Shown here: in pieces, positions 3,014 to 64,000 of the stretch | Layout: each line of letters starts with the position of its first letter | How positions within the stretch are numbered: position 1 is the stretch's first letter | NCBI RefSeq assembly: GCF_024713945.1 | Contig: NC_134680.1 | Coordinates: 6,569,501-6,633,500, forward strand | Length of the DNA stretch: 64,000 nt | Source of the DNA: Dermatophagoides farinae | Taxonomy: Eukaryota; Arthropoda; Arachnida; Sarcoptiformes; Pyroglyphidae | Direction of reading: 5' to 3' | The notes under the pieces: model-generated | What the model was told of the DNA's origin: nothing | Database searches by the model: none | What the model saw: the letters and a program-made list of their open reading frames with translations, nothing else | Program-made: the position numbers and the translations under genes

Positions 3014-3122
3014 CAGGGGTCGGCAACCTTTTTCGGACAGCGGGCCATTTTCAAAATAAAATTTTTTTATGTGGGCCGCATATTCAAATATAACTTAAAT
3101 AGTGCTTTTATATCATATACGA

Positions 3123-3205
3123 CAGGGATGGCGAACCTTTTTTGATGTCCGTGCCACAAATTCATAAAAATTCCTATTTAAATATGTAACGTGCCACAAT
3201 AAAAT
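3123..3205 (+). mobile_element. Internal second hAT-like left terminus (truncated)
   Basis: CAGGGATGGCGAACC followed by a T run and GTCCGTGCCAC resembles the left end of another hAT/MITE family, distinct from the outer terminus. I find no matching right end and no second copy of the preceding 8 bp inside the element, so it looks like a truncated nested insertion or part of a chimeric element. Family assignment rests only on the terminus and is tentative. Confidence 0.45.
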
Positions 3206-3229
3206 TTCATTCGAAAATGGCAAATGTCC

Positions 3230-3866
3230 AAACTAACACGACCAGTTCAGAATCGAGAAAATGACAAATTCAACCTAACACGACCAGTTCGAGAATTCAA
3301 AATTGAGAAAATAACAAGTCCAACCCAACACGACCAGTTCAGAATTCAAAATTCAAAATCGAGAAAATAACAAGTCCAACCTAACACGATCAGTTCAGAG
3401 TTCAGAATCGAGAAAATGGCAAATCCCAACTAACACAACCAGTTCAGAATTTAAAATTCAAAATCGAGAATATAACAAGTCCAAACTAACACGATCAGTT
3501 CAGAATCGAGAAAATAACAAATCCCAACTAACACAACCAGTTCAGAATTTAAAAATCAAAATCGAGAATATAACAAGTCCAACCTAACACGATCAGTTCA
3601 GAATCGAGAAAATAACAAATCCAACCTAACACGACCAGTTCAGAATTCAAAATTCAAAATCGAGAATATAACAAGTCCAAACTAACACGATCAGTTCAGA
3701 ATCGAGAAAATAACAAATCCCAACTAACACAACCAGTTCAGAATTTAAAAATCAAAATCGAGAATATAACAAGTCCAACCTAACATGTCCAGTTCAGAAT
3801 CGAGAAAATAACAAATCCCAACTAACACAACCAGTTCAGAATTTAAAATTCAAAATCGAGAATATA
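3230..3866 (+). repeat. Minisatellite, forward arm (about 13 units)
   Basis: Tandem units all contain AACACGACCAGTTCAGAAT, then AAAATCGAGAA and ACAAGTCCAACCT-like text. Short units of about 42 bp alternate with long units of about 56 bp, giving a higher-order period of about 98 bp; long units carry an extra AATTCAAAATTC-type insert. Units differ by small substitutions such as GACC/GATC/AACC after AACAC. The array ends at the central spacer around 3867-3987. Confidence 0.92.
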
Positions 3867-3987
3867 GAACATATGTTCCGCTCTCTCAATGACCATATTC
3901 ATACCTTGAAAGTAAATATGAATAATTTTAGAATTTCTATCACTTGTGTTATGAATCGTGATAATTCGTGATGAATTCTGAATTGAT

Positions 3988-45404: not shown

Positions 45405-46285
45405 ATGCCGAAATGGCAAAAATTGAAGATTATAAAACTGAACAACAACAACAAAAACAACAATGAAGATTCAGAATTCAAAGTAGTAGTGGGTAAAAAA
45501 TCAAAAAATAAACGTAAACTAGATGAAATGGAAATCGATGATGATAATAAATCATTGCCAAAACTACCAAATTTTAAACCAGTCGATGAAAGTTCAACGG
45601 TAAGCATCATTGTTATTATTTTTCGCTTTAAATTTTAACAACTTTTTCTCGCAAACAATAGTATTCAGGAGTGGAATATCGAAAAATTCAGGTTCCATTA
45701 AATCGTTATAAACCATTGAAAGAGAATTGGCTACGAATATTCACACCAATTGTTGAACATCTTAAATTACAGATGCGTTTCAATATACGTACCAAATGTG
45801 TAGAAATACGTACACCACCTGGATTATCGGATAAATGTAATATACAAAAAGCAGCCGATTTTGTACAGGCATTCATCTTAGGATTCGAAATTGAAGATGC
45901 ACTTGCATTGATTCGTTTAGATGAAATGTTTATTGAATCATTCGAAATACAAGATGGTATGTATTCTATTTGTTTTTTCTTGTTTTGTCAAAAAATTAAT
46001 CTCTTTTCTTTGTATACAATCAATCAAGTTAAACGATTAAAAGGTAATCATTTAAATCGTGCAATTGGTCGTATTGCCGGCACTGGTGGTCGTATAAAAT
46101 TTACTATTGAAAATATTACGAAAACACGAATTGTTTTGGCTGATTCCAAGATTCATATACTCGGTTCATATAATAATATTCGTGCAGCACGTACGGCTAT
46201 CTGTAATCTAATATTGGGTAGTCCACCATCGAAAGTATTTGGCAATATGCGACAATTGGCTAATCGATTAATTGAACAATTTTGA
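45405..46285 (+). CDS. Pno1: PNO1 (partner of NOB1, 40S ribosome biogenesis KH protein)
   Basis: PNO1 binds pre-18S rRNA and the nuclease NOB1 during small-subunit maturation. Exons 45405-45599, 45662-45956 and 46029-46285 give 248 residues, close to the family norm. Conserved blocks are [78 protein letters not shown] (KH-like core), [20 protein letters not shown] and [17 protein letters not shown]. The start is doubtful: an ATG at 45389 in better context opens a 25-residue frame ([16 protein letters not shown] plus Gln-rich) that ends at 45464 in another phase and looks like genuine PNO1-type N-terminus. A one-base indel in the CAA/A-rich stretch would join the two. Confidence 0.93.
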
Positions 46286-46626: not shown

Positions 46627-49600
46627 ATGAGTTTTCGTGGACGATCTCGTCCACGTTTTATTTTTCGTCCGGCTGCATTGCCGGTTACATCATTATCATC
46701 ATCATCATCATTATCAACAACAACGACGACTACGACGACAACATCACCATTATCATCTTTATCACCATCATTACCATCATTACCAATTGACACTCCGACC
46801 AGGCTGACCACTGAAGTGGTTGAAGAACAAACCCGAGAACAGTTACGTCGGATGCAAATTCAAGGTTCGTCAGTCTTTTCTTTGTTACAAGTTTTTTCAA
46901 ATTTATTTATATTTTTTTTTTCATTCAGCTCCATCTTTTCGCGATTCTGGTGACAATATTTCGGTTACACGTGCTGAACACTTGGAACGAAAAAGCCCAC
47001 CACAAATCAAACCTCAATCAAAAGGAGGAACTACAGTAATTCGTCGGGATTTTTCGAATTATCCTGAAGCACAATCTTATCCGATTGTATATTCCGGTAA
47101 ATTTGAATCCGGTACTAATGGTCGTACAATTGAATTATTGGCCAATTTCATGTTGATTAATGTCCATCCAACAATTGTCTTCCAATATGATGTGGATTTT
47201 AAATTCAAAAATTCTGAAAGACAAAAAACAATTTCCGCTGATGAAAATGAACGAATCCAAAGATTTTTTGCAAAACATGCCCCAAAATTGGTTGATCGAT
47301 TTGTTAACGTAAACCAAAATGTTTTCACGGGAATCAAACATATATACGATAATGGTAAAAATATTTATGCCACCGAAGATATTGATTCCTCTATTTTGGT
47401 GAAAAATATTGATGCTGAAATCGATGGACGAAAAAAAGAATTTATTGTTGAATTTTCAAAAGTTCAAATCATTGATCTTTCAACAATTATTGGATTTTAT
47501 TCCGGAAAAATATCCAATATACCTGAAGTGGCAATCAGCTTTCTTGAAGTTTTATTTCAGAATATTTGTCTGAATAAATTTCAACTACATCGTAGAAATT
47601 TATATGATGTTGAAAATGGCCAAACAAGTGGTCCAAATTCATGGCTACGATTTGTTCAAGGCTTCACTACAGCTGTTCATCGTACCCAGATTGGACCTTC
47701 ATTGAATCTACATTTAAAAACATCATGTTTGATTTCATTTAGTACTGAATCATTAGTTCAATTGGTGGAAATGATTTCCGATTGTCGTAATATACGAAAT
47801 TTATCATCGAATGATCTTGACCGTGTAAATAAAATAATCCGTGGATTAGAAGTTTATTCAACACATATGGGCCGAAGAATGACCTATAAAATTAAAGCTC
47901 TTGTTTCAAAAAAACCACGTGAAGTAACATTCATGTTTCGAGAACGAAATAATGGTAATGGTGACGACAACAACAACGATCACGAAAGATTGATTTCAGT
48001 ATATGATTATTTTATGATGAAATATCAAATGGAATTAGAAGATTATCCAACAGTTCAAATGATGGGACGATCAAATTTTTTCATGCCATTGGAAATTTTA
48101 CATATGGTGGATAAACAATTTTTGAATCAGTCCAAAATTGATCCATTAATCCAAAATGATCTTCTACATGCGTCCACACATAAACCATTGGTTTATTTTA
48201 ATCATTTATCAAGATTTGCTACAGAAATTGCTCAATTGGATACGGATAAAATGAATCATTTTGGTGCAAATTTTTCACCAAAACCAGTTCGCCTCAATGG
48301 CCGTGTTTTGGATCCACCACATCTAATTGGTGGTGGTCGTAATGATCGTTTTGCATCAACAGTTGGTTCAAAACAATGGGCATTTTTCAGTTTCGACGAA
48401 AAATTTGATAAACGAGATGTGGCTAATATTGTTTCAGAATTGAAACAAACTGGTCATCGTTTTGGTTTGGATTTATCGAAATGTGTAGAAACTCAAGTTG
48501 TACCAATCGATAATCGAAGTCTGAATGTGGTAAAAAATGTCTTTGCCAACATTTTGAAATTATTACCCGATGTTAATTTATTGTTCATCTTATTACCACA
48601 AAGTAAGTGTGTGTTTGATAAATTGATTATGAATGATTCATATATTTTTTTCTTTGTTCCCATTCTCTAGTTCCATATTTGTATAATATTGTCAAACATT
48701 TTGGTGATCAAAAATTTGGTATCATCACTCAATGTTTGTTATCATCGAAAGCTAAAAGACGTTCTCGTGGTTACATTGAGAGTGTTTTGTTAAAAGTTAA
48801 TGGAAAACTTAATGGTCAAAATAGCTATATTGATACAAGGGACCTGAAATCTTTACCATTTGATCACATGAAAACTATGGCTATTGGTATTGATGTTAAT
48901 CATCCTGGTAGTGGTGAAAAAGTTTTAAATTCAATTGCTTGCGCAATCGGTAGTTATGATCAACATTTCACTCGTTATTCAGCAAGTATACGTGTTCAAA
49001 AACGAGAAAAAGAAGAATTGATCCATGTACTTGAAGAAATGATTAATGAATTGTTGGATGAATATGAAAAAATTAACAAATATTTACCGGAAAATTTTAT
49101 CGTCTTCCGTGATGGTATTGGTGATGGACAATTTAAATCTGCTCAAGATGAAATTGATCAAATCCGTCGAGCTGTACGTCTTCGTGTTGAGAATTACAAA
49201 TTATTGTTTATTGTTACACAGAAACGTCATCAAACTCGTTTTGTATTGTCCAAGCCAAGTGGTCCATCTGATCGTCCTGTTCATAATGTACCATCAGGAA
49301 CTGTAGTTGATACTACAATCATCGATCCAAACTATTGTATGTTTTACATCAATTCACATTTCTCACCATTGGTAAGTGTGTTTGTGTGATATAAAATGGT
49401 TTTACATTATCATAAAACACTCATTATTTTTATATGAATTCAAAATAGGGAACATCACGTCCATTGAAATATGTTGTTTTACATAATGATTATGAACGGC
49501 GACAAATGAGTATGGATGATTTACAAAAACTTTGTTTCTATTTATGCCATAATTGTACTCGCTTTCGTGGTGGTCCAATTGCCATGCCAATTCCAGTTCG

Positions 49601-49769
49601 TTATGCTGATCTTTGTGCTTATCGTTCTAAATTACATCTAGAAGGACAACATGAAAGTAGACATATTCCAGCTGAAAACCAAGAAGAATTTGAACGTCAT
49701 ATCATAACACGATTGAATGAATTGGTTAAATTGAATGATAAAATGAAAAATACTCTTTTCTATTGTTAA
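46627..49769 (+). CDS. Argonaute (Ago clade, divergent; DEDD catalytic tetrad)
   Basis: Guide-RNA-directed silencing protein. Exons 46627-46864, 46929-48602, 48671-49371 and 49449-49769 give 977 residues; phases agree. The N-terminus has a short Arg-rich start and a Ser/Thr run. PAZ lies about 350-475 (VYDYFMMKYQMELEDYPTV, FFMPLEILHMV). MID has HFGDQKFGIITQC and LLKVNGKLNG, keeping the Gln and two Lys that hold the guide 5' phosphate. PIWI shows GIDVNHPGSG (Asp712), REKEELIHVL (Glu753), FRDGIGDGQF (Asp785) and VRYADLCAYRSKLHL (Asp925). Spacings of 41, 73 and 213 residues match human AGO2 (D597, E637, D669, H807), but the last residue is Asp instead of His. GTSRP and NHP favour Ago over Piwi, although GDGQF is Piwi-like. 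Slicing activity is therefore likely. PNO1 lies upstream in the same orientation. Confidence 0.95.
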
Positions 49770-49986: not shown

Positions 49987-50416
49987 TTCACTCATGCATG
50001 CAAATTTTGTTTTGCTTTTGTTTAAGATTTTTGCTCTTTTTTCTTCAAGATTTTCCAAGTTACCTAAATCTCTAAAGAGGATTCTTCTGAAAGCTCAATC
50101 CTAGTTTTACCTATATATTCATGTCACACTTATAATCATTGTGTTTTGAAATTATTGTGACATTATAATGTAAGTAATAGAGCAAAGTAATCAACAGGCA
50201 ATCAACTGTAAGGGATCCAGTTTGAAAGATTTTCTATTTTTTTCTTTATCCTGGATCTTGATAGCTCGTTTTTCGGTTATTTACGAGTATTGTTCTAATT
50301 TTTTGCTTTTTTTTTTTATAGTTTGGATTGTTTTTTTTTTCGTTTGGTATGTTTTTTTTCAACTAGTTTTCATTGTTGTTCATTTGATTACGTTTTTTTC
50401 AGAAAAAAGAATCATC
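49770..50416. other. Argonaute-Maf intergenic spacer
   Basis: Contains the Argonaute 3' untranslated region, the short palindrome ATGGCGCCAT near 49921, and a (TG)16 tract at 49952-49984. I see no gene. The frame that continues upstream of the Maf ATG is Phe-rich poly-T translation and was not used. Confidence 0.6.
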
Positions 50417-51160
50417 ATGTTGGAACCAATTCGTCAAATCATCAGTCGTCAACGTAATATTCTTGCATCATCAAGTATACGGCGAAAAGAAATTCTTGAA
50501 AGTGTTAGATTTAATTTTGAAGTCATCCGGCCAGAATTCGAAGAGAATTTGGATAAAAATTCATTTACACATCCATGTGAATATGTAAAAGAAAATGCTA
50601 AACAAAAAGCGCTATCAGTTTGGCGACAATTAGCCCGTTTGGATAAAAACAATGTTGCCGATCTGGTTATCGGTTGCGATACAGTGGTTACATTGGATGA
50701 AAAAATTTATGAAAAACCTAAAAATGAAACGGATGCTATACGTGTATTGATGAAATTGAATGGTCGAACACATACGGTATTCACAGGTGTTGCTTTAATA
50801 ACAAAATCAAAATCCATGTCATCATCATCATCATCATCGACAACAACAACAGCTTCTAACCAGCAACAACAACAACAGCAAATGACACAATCATCATCAT
50901 CATCATCGTCATCATCTGTTGATGGTGATTATCTTGTCACTACATTCCATGAAGCGACCGATGTTACAATGTCCGAAATGGATAAAACAATCATTGAATC
51001 ATATGTTAAAACTGGCGAACCATTTGATAAAGCTGGTGGTTATGGTATCCAAGGTATTGGTGCTACATTAATCGAATCAATTCGTGGTGATTATTTCAAT
51101 GTTGTTGGATTACCATTACATCGATTAGCTAAAGAATTATACTATATGTATACGGAATGA
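50417..51160 (+). CDS. Maf-family nucleotide pyrophosphatase (ASMTL-N-like)
   Basis: Maf proteins hydrolyse dTTP, UTP or modified nucleoside triphosphates to monophosphates, which protects against incorporation of abnormal bases. The single exon encodes 247 residues from the first sensible ATG. Motifs in order: ILASSSIRRKEILES, CEYVKENAKQKA, VIGCDTVVTLDEKIYEKP with the catalytic-base Asp, MKLNGRTHTVFTGVAL, KTGEPFDKAGGYGIQGIG and IRGDYFNVVGLPLHRLAKEL. These match the Maf domain that forms the N-terminal half of human ASMTL; no methyltransferase domain follows. A low-complexity Ser/Thr/Gln insert of about 45 residues (about 134-175) sits in a loop between two strands and should be tolerated. 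Family membership is certain; substrate is not. Confidence 0.94.
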   Translation: MLEPIRQIISRQRNILASSSIRRKEILESVRFNFEVIRPEFEENLDKNSFTHPCEYVKENAKQKALSVWRQLARLDKNNVADLVIGCDTVVTLDEKIYEKPKNETDAIRVLMKLNGRTHTVFTGVALITKSKSMSSSSSSSTTTTASNQQQQQQQMTQSSSSSSSSSVDGDYLVTTFHEATDVTMSEMDKTIIESYVKTGEPFDKAGGYGIQGIGATLIESIRGDYFNVVGLPLHRLAKELYYMYTE

Positions 51161-58771: not shown

Positions 58772-60719
58772 ATGGCTCGATTCTTATCGACAGTATTATT
58801 ATTGGCAATTGTTGCTGGCCCAAGTTTGCAACAAGGTGGTACGAAAAATCGTCCCGTTTCATCATCATCAAGCGGTTCTAGCCGTGGTGGTGGTGGTGGT
58901 GGTAGTGGATTTACTTCACCTGTAGCCATGATGAATGGTGGTGGTTTTGGTGCAAGAACCGGATATAGCGGCTCAACAAGTAGTTCATCTGGTGGTTCAC
59001 TTAGCGGTGGTGGCGGTAGTAGCGGTGGTACCGTTATGGGTAGCTGGTCACCAATGACATCAACATCAAGTGGTTCTAACCGTGGTGGTGGTAGTAGTAG
59101 TGGTGGTGGATTTAAATCAACCGGTGGTGGTGGTGGTGGTGGTAGCGGTGCTTCTGGCAGCTATGGTTCATCCGGTGGCAGCCGTGGTGGTAGCATGAAT
59201 GGTGGCAGCAGCTTTGGATCAAGTTTTGGCAGTAGTTCTAACGGTGGAAGTCGTGGAACCAGTGGCTCTACTGGTAATGGTGGTGGAAGCTATAATGGTG
59301 GATCAAGTTCTGGCGGAACTGGTTCAATGGGATTCAGTTCTGGCGGTAGCGGTTCTTTCGGTGGATCAACCGGAACTGGTTCAATGGGATTTAGTTCTGG
59401 CGGTAGCGGTTCTTTCGGTGGATCCACCGGAACTGGTTCAATGGGATTCAGTTCTGGCGGCAGTGGTTCATATGGTGGATCTACTGGAACTGGCGGAACA
59501 GGCGGAACTGGCTCAATTGGTTTCGGCTCGGGCGGGAGCGGATCTTTCGGTGGATCTGGTTCAATGATGTCATCGGGTGGTGGTGGTGGTGGTGGTTCTT
59601 CATTTGGTGGTGGTTCTTCATTTGGCGGTGGTTCTTCATTTGGCGGTGGTTCTTCAAGTGATTCAGGATCAGCTGATGGAGCTGCTGCTGGTGGAGCTAT
59701 CGGAGGTGGCAGCGGTTTCAGTGATGGTGATAGTCAATTCAAAATGGGTGGATCAGGTGGTGAACGTATACCAGCAGCTGTAATCACTAAACATACAGTG
59801 GATTTCAAACAAGTGGATATTCCATTTGAAGATATTGAACCACAAATTATTGAAGTTGAAGGTGGTGCTTTACCATTGGAAATTCATTTCAAATCAAGTT
59901 CATCAAGAATTCGTGTTCATCAAACACATGAAGCAGCCGGTGCTGGTGAAGTTGAACAAACTTCATCGGAAGAAGAACCACATCGACTTATTCACGAAGT
60001 TAAAAAGCCAATTATTCAGGTTCGTTTTCAATGAAATTAATTGATTCAATTCATACTAATAATCTATTATTTGTTCTAACAAACAGGAAGTACGAGAAAT
60101 CATTACACCTTATCGACGTGTTATTCAGGAAATTCAACCTGTTATGGAAGAAATTCATACAATTGTTGCCAAAGGCGAAGCACGACGACAATTCGATCGA
60201 AATCAATCAAAATCCCGAGGTGGTGGTGGTGGTGGCGGAAGTTCTGCTGGTTCAGGTCTTCAATCACCAAGCAGAAATGGAGCCGCTGCTATGGGCCAAG
60301 GTGGTTCAGCTCCTACTGGTGGTTCTGGTTTTGGTGCTGGAGGAAATTATGGTGGAAGCTCAAGTCCTGCAACAGGTGGTTTTGGTGGTGCTCCTACACC
60401 TTCTACTGGAATGTCATCTGGTTTTGGCAGTGGTGGATCATCCAGTTTTGGTGGATCAGGAAGCTTTGGTGGTAATGGTGGTGGAAATTACATGGGCGGA
60501 TCACGAGGTGGTTCAACAGGTGGTGGTGGTGGTGGTGGTAGTTTTAGCGGTACTGGTTCTAGCAACAATGGTGGTAGTCGTGGTGGTTTTGGTGGTACAT
60601 CATTTGGTGGTGGTGGATCTTCCGGTGGTGGTAGCAGTGGTTTCAATGGATTCTCACAAACATTTGAATCAGGTACATCACAAACATTTGAAACTGGAAC
60701 CGAACAAAAATCATATTAG
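58772..60719 (+). CDS. Secreted Gly/Ser-rich protein of a mite-type family
   Basis: Exons 58772-60019 and 60087-60719 give 626 residues, phase 0. A signal peptide (FLSTVLLLAIVAGPS) is followed by about 310 residues of Gly/Ser-rich sequence. This contains a 57-bp (19-residue) tandem repeat based on GSMGFSSGGSGSFGGS starting at 59321, and an 18-bp SSFGGG repeat near 59597-59655. A non-repetitive conserved domain spans about 336-451 (TKHTVDFKQVDIP, PQIIEVEGGALPLEIHFKS, EEPHRLIHEVKKPIIQ, EVREIITPYRRVIQEIQP). A second Gly-rich tail of about 170 residues follows. The composition suggests a structural protein of cuticle or secretion. The conserved domain recalls mite proteins labelled DFP2-like, from memory and unverified. 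A TATA box lies upstream. Confidence 0.88.
59321..59491 (+). repeat. 57-bp coding tandem repeat (3 full copies)
   Basis: Copies begin at 59321, 59378 and 59435, each starting GGTTCAATGGGATT. They encode the 19-residue period of the Gly-rich protein and differ by only a few silent or conservative changes, such as Phe to Tyr in copy 3. A degenerate fourth copy with a Gly-Thr insert follows near 59510. Confidence 0.88.
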
Positions 60720-62798
60720 GATTTTGTTCAGTTTTCGATCATCAATCATTATTTTAATACCTTGGTTAATCATCTTCCGGTATCATCATTATCATCATCA
60801 TCATCAAATGAAACAAAAATGATCGATGATTCACTAAAATCGTCAGACTAATTTTCATTTATTACTGCCAATCATTATAAGCTTGCCAAGCATTCAATTG
60901 GTTCCATTTTTTTTCCTACATACAGAAAATTCCATATATTTATTCTTGTAACTTATTTATGAATTACGTAATTCTGTCATTGTTTTTCATTGTTATTTTA
61001 ATTTTTATTTTTTTTTCATTCAATTTTTATTTTTTTTTGCTGTTGTACTTACACACATCTAATTCATTCATCCATCCATCCATCCATTCATTCATTCATT
61101 CATTATGTAAAGAAAATGCATTAAAAATAAATTTTTCGTTTCTCACTACAATCGATTCAATGCTCTCACTGATTTTATTATCTTATATAAACATTACATA
61201 CACGTGTAACAGAAATCTAGATATACCATAGAAACAAATATATACCATCATCATTGTCAATATTCAAAGCCAAAATGAAAACATTATCATGATCAAATGT
61301 CCATCATCGTCATCATCATCATCCAGCATGAACATCCGTGATGTTCCTGGAACACACACACTTAAAAGCACACACACGAAGCAATGTATCTTTAATTTGA
61401 ATGTGAATCTTCTTTAATATTCATTCAACCTAACCTAACACATGCTTGTCATTTTTTTATATTTTTTTTTTTTTTTGGATTCCATTTTATTTCATTTCAT
61501 AAACTAAACTGAACACAAAAGAAGCCACAAAAAGTAAAAGTCAAAAGAAAAAAAAAGAAAAAAAAATTTGAATCAGGAAGTCCTAATAACAATACAATTA
61601 TTATTATTTGGTCAATAGCTAAATGGCCACCATCTATTTCATTTCACATTTTTTTGGCAGAGATTGGCTTTTGTTGTTGTTGTTATGAGAGACAAAATAA
61701 AAACAGATATAATCAATAAATTTTCTTTCTTTCATTTCTTTGTTGTTGTTGTTGTTTTTTTTTCAATTCATTATGCACCAAATGATAAATCACGATCAAC
61801 GATTATGGAAATGCAAAAAAAAGGAAAAAAAATTAATCAACGTAATCGATGTATATATATACAATGTATATATAATCATCATCGATAAATTTTTTTTCTG
61901 ACATCATCGGGTTAAAAACATATTATCATCCCACTGGAAAATTTTTTTTTTCAATTTTATCATTTGTTTGACCACATTTGATGATGCTATAAATAAAAAT
62001 TTTTTAAAAAAAACAAACGATCCATACTTGTACAGAGAGAGAGAGAGAGAGATTTTTTTTTCGTTTTGTATTGTTTTGTTTGTCACCAAAAAAAAATTGT
62101 ACTGGATCTCAAGGAGATTTAAAATGATGATGATGATGAAAAAAATTTCTCAACCAACCAATCAACCAAAGACAAAGAAGAATTTTCTCACACATTAAAC
62201 ACACACACACAGAGAAAGAGAAAGAAAAAAATTGACCAAATATTGGTCATAAATAAATCAGAAGCCTTAAAAAAAACATTTTTTTTGGTGACATGATGAA
62301 TAAACAAATATATGATGAAAAAAAAATTTCAGACACACACACACCTCTCATATAGACATATATATTGGTCAAAATGGCCATTGACACCAAAAAAAGCGAA
62401 AAAAACATCAATACATTACCTCATCAACGGTCAATGAATTGTAGTGAAAGAAAAAAAATTTTTGAAAAGTCTTCAACCACATACATATATGTCACATGTT
62501 GTTGTTGTTGTTGTTGATTCATTCATTCATTCTATTCATTTCGATTGATTATCAATCAATTGTGATTGACCAATATCTATCTATAACCAAGGTAAATTGG
62601 CCATTTGTTTGACCAAAATCTTCACCAATGGCTATATATTCGTTTTCTAGTTTTGTTTGTTTTCGCTTGGTTCATATACGAGAGTGACACATCTTTTTTT
62701 TCAAAAAAAAAAAATTTTCATTTTTTAAATATTATTCTTTCACAAAAAAAAATTTTTGAAAAAGTTGAAAGTGTTGAAAGAGCACCTGTTGTTATGGA
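60720..62798. other. Spacer between the two tandem paralogues
   Basis: Contains the 3' flank of the first gene, with an AATAAA at 61126-61131, then simple repeats (CATT near 61070-61104, GTT near 61741 and 62498, AG near 62036). I see no gene. Confidence 0.6.
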
Positions 62799-62808
62799 TA
62801 TATAAAAA
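62799..62808 (+). promoter_or_regulatory. TATA box of the second paralogue
   Basis: TATATAAAAA about 195 bp before the start codon. Both paralogues having a canonical TATA box fits strong, regulated expression of secreted structural proteins. Confidence 0.5.
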
Positions 62809-63001
62809 CATCAATCCAAATCAATCGATATCATTTCAAAAAACAACAACAACAACAAAACGACGAAAAACATCGAATCGAATCGATAACATTCGAATTT
62901 TCATCACTCGTTTTTTTCGTTGCCCGTTTAAATTCGATATATCGATTGTTTTTCATTCGAAAATTTTTCAACATTTGAAAATTCAATACCGATATATAAA
63001 A

Positions 63002-64000
63002 ATGTTCATCAAATCATTCATTCTTTTTGTAGTTCCGGTTTTATTTTATTCAAGCAATGCAGAAACAACAGTGGCAAAATCTGGTGGAATCAAAACCACC
63101 ACAGCTAAATTATCACAACAACAAATGTCACGAATATTACCGGAATCACCAGCTACATCGCCGACAACTGTACCGGATAATTTTCGTGATTCATTACGTT
63201 TTAAAATGAAATTAGTCAATGATGCTATGCTTTATGGTGGTAGTAATTATGCTACGGCTACCGCAACAACTGCATCACCTGGAATACCGGAATTGGATGA
63301 AGCTCTGTCCATATCTAGTGCTGAACTTGGTGCCAGTAAAGAGGTTAATGTCGAAGATACAATGCGATCAATTCTTGATGCCGACCATATTACCAGCCGA
63401 CCATTGGAACCGGTTCATCGCCGTTTTTCTAGCCGAATTACCACAGGTGTTAAAAATCGTCATGGCGCCGCATTCACTGGTGATCAACGACGTTTCAAAG
63501 CGGCAGTACGTACAAAACATACATTTGAATATCGACCGGTGAAAATTGAACAATTTCGTGAACAACCGGAACCGAAAATAATTGAAGTTGAAGCACGATC
63601 ATTGCCGTTAGAAATTCATTTCAAATCTGCATCATCGCGAATTAAAATGGTGCAAGAACATCAAAAAGGTGAATTACAACAAGAAGAACGTACCCAATCA
63701 CAAGAGGAACCACAACGATTATTCCATGTGGTACGGAAACCAATCATACAGGTTCGTTTTTCGTGATGAAATTGATCGATTGATTCATATTAATAATAAT
63801 CTATTTCTATCCCAAAACAGGAAGTACGAGAAATCATTACACCATATAGACGTATTTTACAGGAAATACAACCTGTTATTGAAGAAATCCATACGGTAAT
63901 ATCACATGGTGGCCAACAACATCGTCATGAAGATGAACAACAATTAATCGGAACTGATGCCACAGTAATTGGACGACCAACTAGTGTGGAAACAGAAGAA
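63002..64000 (+). CDS. Second secreted paralogue of the family, not Gly-rich (partial at window end)
   Basis: Exon 1 is 63002-63751 and exon 2 starts at 63821 and runs past the window end; 310 residues are visible. A signal peptide (FIKSFILFVVPVLFYSSNA) is followed by about 145 residues of ordinary composition with no Gly repeats. The family domain then occupies about 166-285 (RTKHTFEYRPVKI, PKIIEVEARSLPLEIHFKS, ASSRIKMVQEHQ, EEPQRLFHVVRKPIIQ, EVREIITPYRRILQEIQP). The intron interrupts the same codon boundary as in the upstream gene, and the two introns are themselves similar. This domain is thus the core shared element, and the Gly-rich parts are optional. The start was chosen for its signal peptide and TATA spacing. 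Confidence 0.87.

Follow-up and report, generated by a model that had tools for sequence, protein, structure and literature searches.

The Argonaute gene described here lies in a window of 64,000 nucleotides of the Dermatophagoides farinae genome, the whole stretch of DNA that was analysed. It runs on the + strand from the ATG at 46627 to the TAA at 49769 and comprises four exons, which GT-AG splicing joins into a single uninterrupted frame of 977 aa across introns of 64, 68 and 77 bases. Realignment of the 977-aa protein to the DNA with a spliced-alignment script returned identical borders, a check that is not independent of the model. Exon 1 (46627..46864, +) carries the start codon and a Ser/Thr-rich N terminus beginning with MSFRGRSRPR, and is followed by the donor GT at 46865. 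Exon 2 (46929..48602, +) encodes the N domain, the linkers, PAZ and the start of MID; exon 3 (48671..49371, +), which lies downstream of a phase-1 intron, encodes the end of MID and most of PIWI; and exon 4 (49449..49769, +) encodes the end of PIWI, with the C terminus FYC and the stop codon TAA. The intron between exons 3 and 4 (49372..49448, +) is of phase 0 and lies directly upstream of GTSRP. Pfam matched ArgoN at aa 145-288 (PF16486; 47123..47554, +; E 4.3e-12), PAZ at aa 365-481 (PF02170; 47783..48133, +; E 2.1e-12) and Piwi (E 9.2e-66), so that the window protein has all three of the domains that define the published DfaAgo3-8 clade considered below.

A search of the window against Rfam gave 0 matches. 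The gene is flanked by ORFs 45671-46285 and 50222-51160, whose motifs resemble those of a PNO1-like protein with a KH domain and of a Maf-like nucleotide pyrophosphatase, respectively. Further along the window, a GC-rich ORF at 58772-60034 encodes a Gly/Ser-rich product with a hydrophobic start and contains a tandem repeat of 57 bases. The ORF at 62756-63766 repeats the C-terminal part of this product (LPLEIHFKS, ending KPIIQVRF).

Residue equivalences were taken from a phmmer alignment of the window protein to PDB chains of human AGO2, with a best E of 7.6e-72. Here the catalytic D712 (48892-48894, +) stands opposite AGO2 D597, the glutamate finger E753 (49015-49017, +) opposite E637, and the catalytic D785 (49111-49113, +) opposite D669, while the fourth catalytic residue is D925 (codon GAT; 49608-49610, +), opposite H807. 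Both the residue numbers and the coordinates proposed by the initial annotation are therefore correct, and the His found at the fourth position of canonical Ago1 and Ago2 proteins is Asp in the window protein. D712 is directly followed by V-N-H-P, in which Asn (N714) replaces a Thr of AGO2. The claim that the guide-phosphate residues of MID are retained also stands: an eight-protein alignment places Y642, K646, Q658, K679 and K683 of the 5′-phosphate pocket (48682..48807, +) opposite AGO2 Y529, K533, Q545, K566 and K570, and the position of R812 is kept as well.

Among the best-scoring candidates, a PIWI-family search of the genome gave at least 22 matched pieces and a search with the window protein at least 26, and from the candidates listed eight genes were modelled, each spanning the N domain through PIWI. 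Only the window gene and the uninterrupted frame on C9 are complete at the N terminus; the other models start where the alignment to the window protein starts and thus lack theirs, and the Ago1 model has an uncertain C-terminal end. Pfam was applied to the window protein and to nine pieces of the diverged loci. Two of the eight genes are of DEDH type, namely Ago1 on C3 (L010, C3:4.60 Mb) and a second gene on C9, which we term Ago2-like, and both encode the His by CAT. The other six have Asp at the fourth position, encoded by GAT in each case, and lie at six separate places: the window on C4, C4:4.7 Mb, C8:94 kb, C8:740 kb, C10:2.7 Mb and C2:663 kb. All four catalytic residues are retained in each of these six paralogs, two of which are, in the part that aligns, no more than 0.32-0.34 identical to the window protein.

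The six DEDD genes also share their gene structure. The phase-0 intron upstream of GTS[RK]P is found in every one of them, in the identical alignment column and phase, and the phase-1 intron in MID is found in five of the six, at a place that matches within one alignment column; neither intron occurs in the Ago1 model or in the uninterrupted C9 frame. Across the eight proteins, 28 alignment columns are fixed in the six DEDD members and different in both others, including those of D925 and N714, the latter being Thr in Ago1, as in AGO2, and Ala in the C9 protein. The window gene and its closest paralog share 63% identity across 855 codons, and their NG86 dN/dS of 0.33 is a sign of constraint between the two.

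A tree (LG+G4) was built from 12 MID-PIWI sequences, comprising the six DEDD proteins, Ago1, the C9 protein, human AGO2 and three PIWI proteins. MAFFT placed the MID loop of the C10 protein one way in the alignment behind this tree and another way in the eight-protein alignment, from which the residue assignments were taken. The six DEDD proteins were split from Ago1, the C9 protein, human AGO2 and the three PIWI proteins with SH-aLRT 99.5 and UFBoot 100, a result that tests separation from these references only, since further mites, spiders, plants, fungi and nematodes (WAGOs included) have no sequence in the tree. With two very diverged proteins of a cluster on C2 added (14 sequences), the same split was recovered at 96.3/93 and those two fell outside the six. 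The position of the C9 protein itself had a support of 37.6/50. Placement in a tree, which had been suggested as a check on the window gene, put it neither with Ago1 nor with the other DEDH gene, an outcome in favour of the initial annotation, and its five sisters also have Asp.

The guide pocket divides the six paralogs. The residues that hold a 5′ monophosphate are kept in the window gene and in those at C4:4.7 Mb, C8:740 kb and C10. The genes at C8:94 kb (L012) and C2:663 kb (L015), which are sisters with a support of 99.6/100, have Ser at AGO2 K533, Glu at K566 and Lys at R812, and the C2:663 kb gene additionally has Asn at K570, so that basic residues of the pocket are lost in both. We found no published mention of these altered pockets in the available parts of the literature, supplementary figures lying outside the search.

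The added C2 proteins come from a cluster of three Argonaute-like genes on the - strand (C2:6491700-6501540; L016, L017). All three pass the curated Pfam cut-off for PIWI, ArgoN is below its cut-off in two and absent in the third, and PAZ gave no match in any of the three with E values up to 1. Of the tetrad, copy A has lost all but one residue; copy B keeps the first Asp and not the third, has a gap at the second position and an aligned piece that stops before the fourth. Neither of these two aligned copies therefore has the whole tetrad, and in the third copy the frame is broken. The first exons of copies A and C show 84% identity and a dN/dS of 0.74, and a PIWI piece of the two shows 87% identity and a dN/dS of 0.38. 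By motif and clustering only, the cluster is like the Psoroptes ovis genes with the motif S[E/K]HE, which were called potentially P. ovis-specific (PMC6211577). For D. farinae we found no published mention of such a cluster without a PAZ match in the accessible text of the sources, their supplementary figures again lying outside the search. Elsewhere on C2, a very diverged Argonaute-like stretch (L018, C2:9500-18000; ORFs 1974-2966 and 3052-3894, - strand) matched Piwi with E 6.1e-10 and is adjoined by a prenylcysteine lyase-like ORF.

Ago1 (L010) has Asp, encoded by GAT, at the glutamate-finger position, so that its tetrad reads DDDH in this assembly. DfaAgo1 is written as DEDH by Mondal et al. 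(PMC5805368), and no published mention of the finger Asp was found in the text available, although S2 Fig of that paper, which lay outside the search, could show it. This residue, the altered pockets of the two sister paralogs and the C2 cluster without PAZ each lead to specific tests.

The comparisons above bear on what kind of Argonaute the window gene encodes. It might be a canonical Ago1 or Ago2 orthologue in which His changed to Asp recently or by error, and CAT to GAT is indeed a change of one base, but C3 and C9 carry distinct DEDH-type genes, and six genes that share an intron have the Asp in common. As these lie at six separate places, neither drift nor an error in the assembly accounts for it; an assembly error at D925 was accordingly rejected, and we regard the orthologue explanation as highly improbable. 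It could also belong to the PIWI clade, or be a hybrid of Ago and Piwi, and have retained piRNA biology, given that its GDGQF resembles the GDGQL of human PIWIL1. The initial annotation had read this motif as part of a mixture of Ago-like and Piwi-like features, a description that is not supported for the lineage, since GDGQF is private to the window paralog and the five other DEDD proteins read GVSEGQF, GVSDGQF or GVSESQF. In addition, the window protein has GTSRP and DVNHP where the three PIWI references have VSPT or GIPT and DxYHD, and these references, few as they are, branch separately at 100/100, on which ground the hybrid was rejected; a PIWI identity is in our view hardly credible. Of the proposal of a divergent and catalytically competent Ago lineage, the DEDD tetrad, the divergence and a probable competence are supported; the lineage is not new, as its features agree with those of the psoroptidian DEDD clade that Mondal et al. 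described in 2018.

Whether this family cuts RNA is the second question on which explanations diverge. We consider it probable that the window gene encodes a DEDD Argonaute which loads Dicer siRNAs and slices transposon transcripts. From double-stranded RNA that arises at transposon loci, in part through RdRP, Dicer would cut siRNAs of ~24 nt with a 5′ monophosphate; these would be loaded by the window Argonaute, and complementary transposon transcripts would be cleaved by its two-metal RNase H site, in which D925 replaces the usual histidine. In this way, a DEDD Argonaute could do part of the work of PIWI proteins in other arthropods. For the window paralog in particular, we infer its expression, its bound guides and its cutting. 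An Argonaute with Asp at the fourth position can slice: KpAGO has the tetrad D974, E1013, D1046 and D1198, and mutation of E1013 abolishes its slicing (PMC10772731). According to the available text of PMC5805368, the transposon siRNAs of dust mites are mostly ~24 nt and Dicer knockdown derepresses transposons; siRNAs of the master loci are not 2′-O-methylated, and a nuclease specific for monophosphates degraded about half of them, a fraction that the authors interpret as Dicer products. Taken together with the retained pocket, the slicing by KpAGO and these siRNA data make an siRNA-guided slicer against transposons the simplest reading. Specialisation for transposon siRNAs is plausible, because dust mites are reported to have ~24-nt Dicer siRNAs on transposons and to lack Piwi, and a role of the DEDD clade in transposon siRNA silencing has been proposed in print (PMC5805368). 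Alternatively, the DEDD family could be mainly non-cutting, with a tetrad kept by descent, and act by recruiting factors of chromatin or of decay, in the manner of transcriptional silencing directed by siRNAs. Eukaryotic AGOs are described as sharing a conserved Thr after the first Asp, which helps to position the glutamate finger (PMC10772731). Since each of the six DEDD proteins has Asn in its place, they may cut weakly or under a different control, which speaks against full equivalence with known slicers; human AGO3, moreover, is DEDH and yet slices far less than AGO2 with mature miRNAs (PMC10772731). Retention of the tetrad in all six paralogs, despite the low identity of two of them, is unexpected if cutting is unused, and we consider a non-cutting family unlikely, if worth keeping in mind.

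The slicer reading need not apply to all six paralogs, which may have divided roles. In nematode WAGOs, divergent pocket residues have been linked to triphosphate guides (Seroussi et al., PMC10101689). Triphosphate guides for the whole DEDD clade were considered and set aside, being unsupported for the window gene with its canonical pocket, and for the C8:94 kb and C2:663 kb pair the analogy is weak. Mondal et al. (PMC5805368) describe the mobility of Terminator-resistant siRNAs as unchanged, with no sign of a triphosphate, and call all D. farinae RdRPs processive. A DEDD clade split by guide type, in which the altered pair would take other 5′ ends such as those of RdRP products, as nematode WAGOs do, seems to us a rather improbable arrangement. 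If it were true, dust mites would have rebuilt a two-layer system of primary and secondary siRNAs from slicer-type Argonautes after the loss of PIWI. The DEDD clade is the likely effector in an animal lineage that is reported to have lost PIWI and to silence transposons by siRNAs, and the window gene, with its intact guide pocket, is a fair representative in which to ask whether an animal Argonaute can slice with Asp as its fourth catalytic residue.

Allergen families of the same genome were also matched. A predicted protein matches Der f 21 at 111 of 111 residues (PDB 9had, 5yny). A search for the group 2 allergen family gave seven matches among the best-scored candidates (L019-L024), none of them a close relative of Der f 2; the best (L019) differs much from both Der p 2 and Der f 2. 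The absence of a close Der f 2 relative among the matches listed, unexplained in a genome of D. farinae, would by itself speak against Dermatophagoides; we give more weight to the Der f 21 identity, with which the published numbers of Argonautes and RdRPs also agree.

The closest published counterpart of the six paralogs is the D. farinae set of Mondal et al. 2018, cited here from the accessible part of its text. That work (PMC5805368) reports eight Argonautes, of which Ago1 and Ago2 are DEDH and DfaAgo3-8 form a divergent clade marked by 'an uncommon DEDD catalytic motif' (GenBank KY794593-KY794598), together with four RdRPs, three Dicers and no Piwi. In the present genome, six DEDD paralogs likewise stand beside two His genes of the same species, and RdRP was found at four places, equal to the published count; Dicer-dimer matches lie at four places, compared with the three Dicers reported. 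No feature was seen that sets the window gene apart from DfaAgo3-8, the match being one of counts and motif rather than of the letters of KY794593-KY794598, and by description the window gene is most likely one of that group. Because the gene set matches, both the family and its motif had been described before, and the finding is to that extent a known one.

Compared by description, Asp at the fourth position is also reported for the five P. ovis proteins PsoAgo8-12 (PMC6211577) and for the six D. pteronyssinus proteins Ago2b-2g (PMC7659050). The nematode WAGO-like Argonautes, again judged by description, have a divergent guide pocket (PMC10101689), whereas the window protein keeps Y, K, Q, K and K. 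With human AGO2 it shares the domain order, the residues for the guide 5′ phosphate and the D-E-D of the tetrad, but AGO2 has His at position 4, and Thr rather than Asn two residues past the first Asp. Finally, KpAGO of budding yeast and TtAGO of Thermus are also DEDD with a glutamate finger (PMC10772731); they belong to distant lineages outside our tree, and we infer that the change from His to Asp in mites is independent of theirs.
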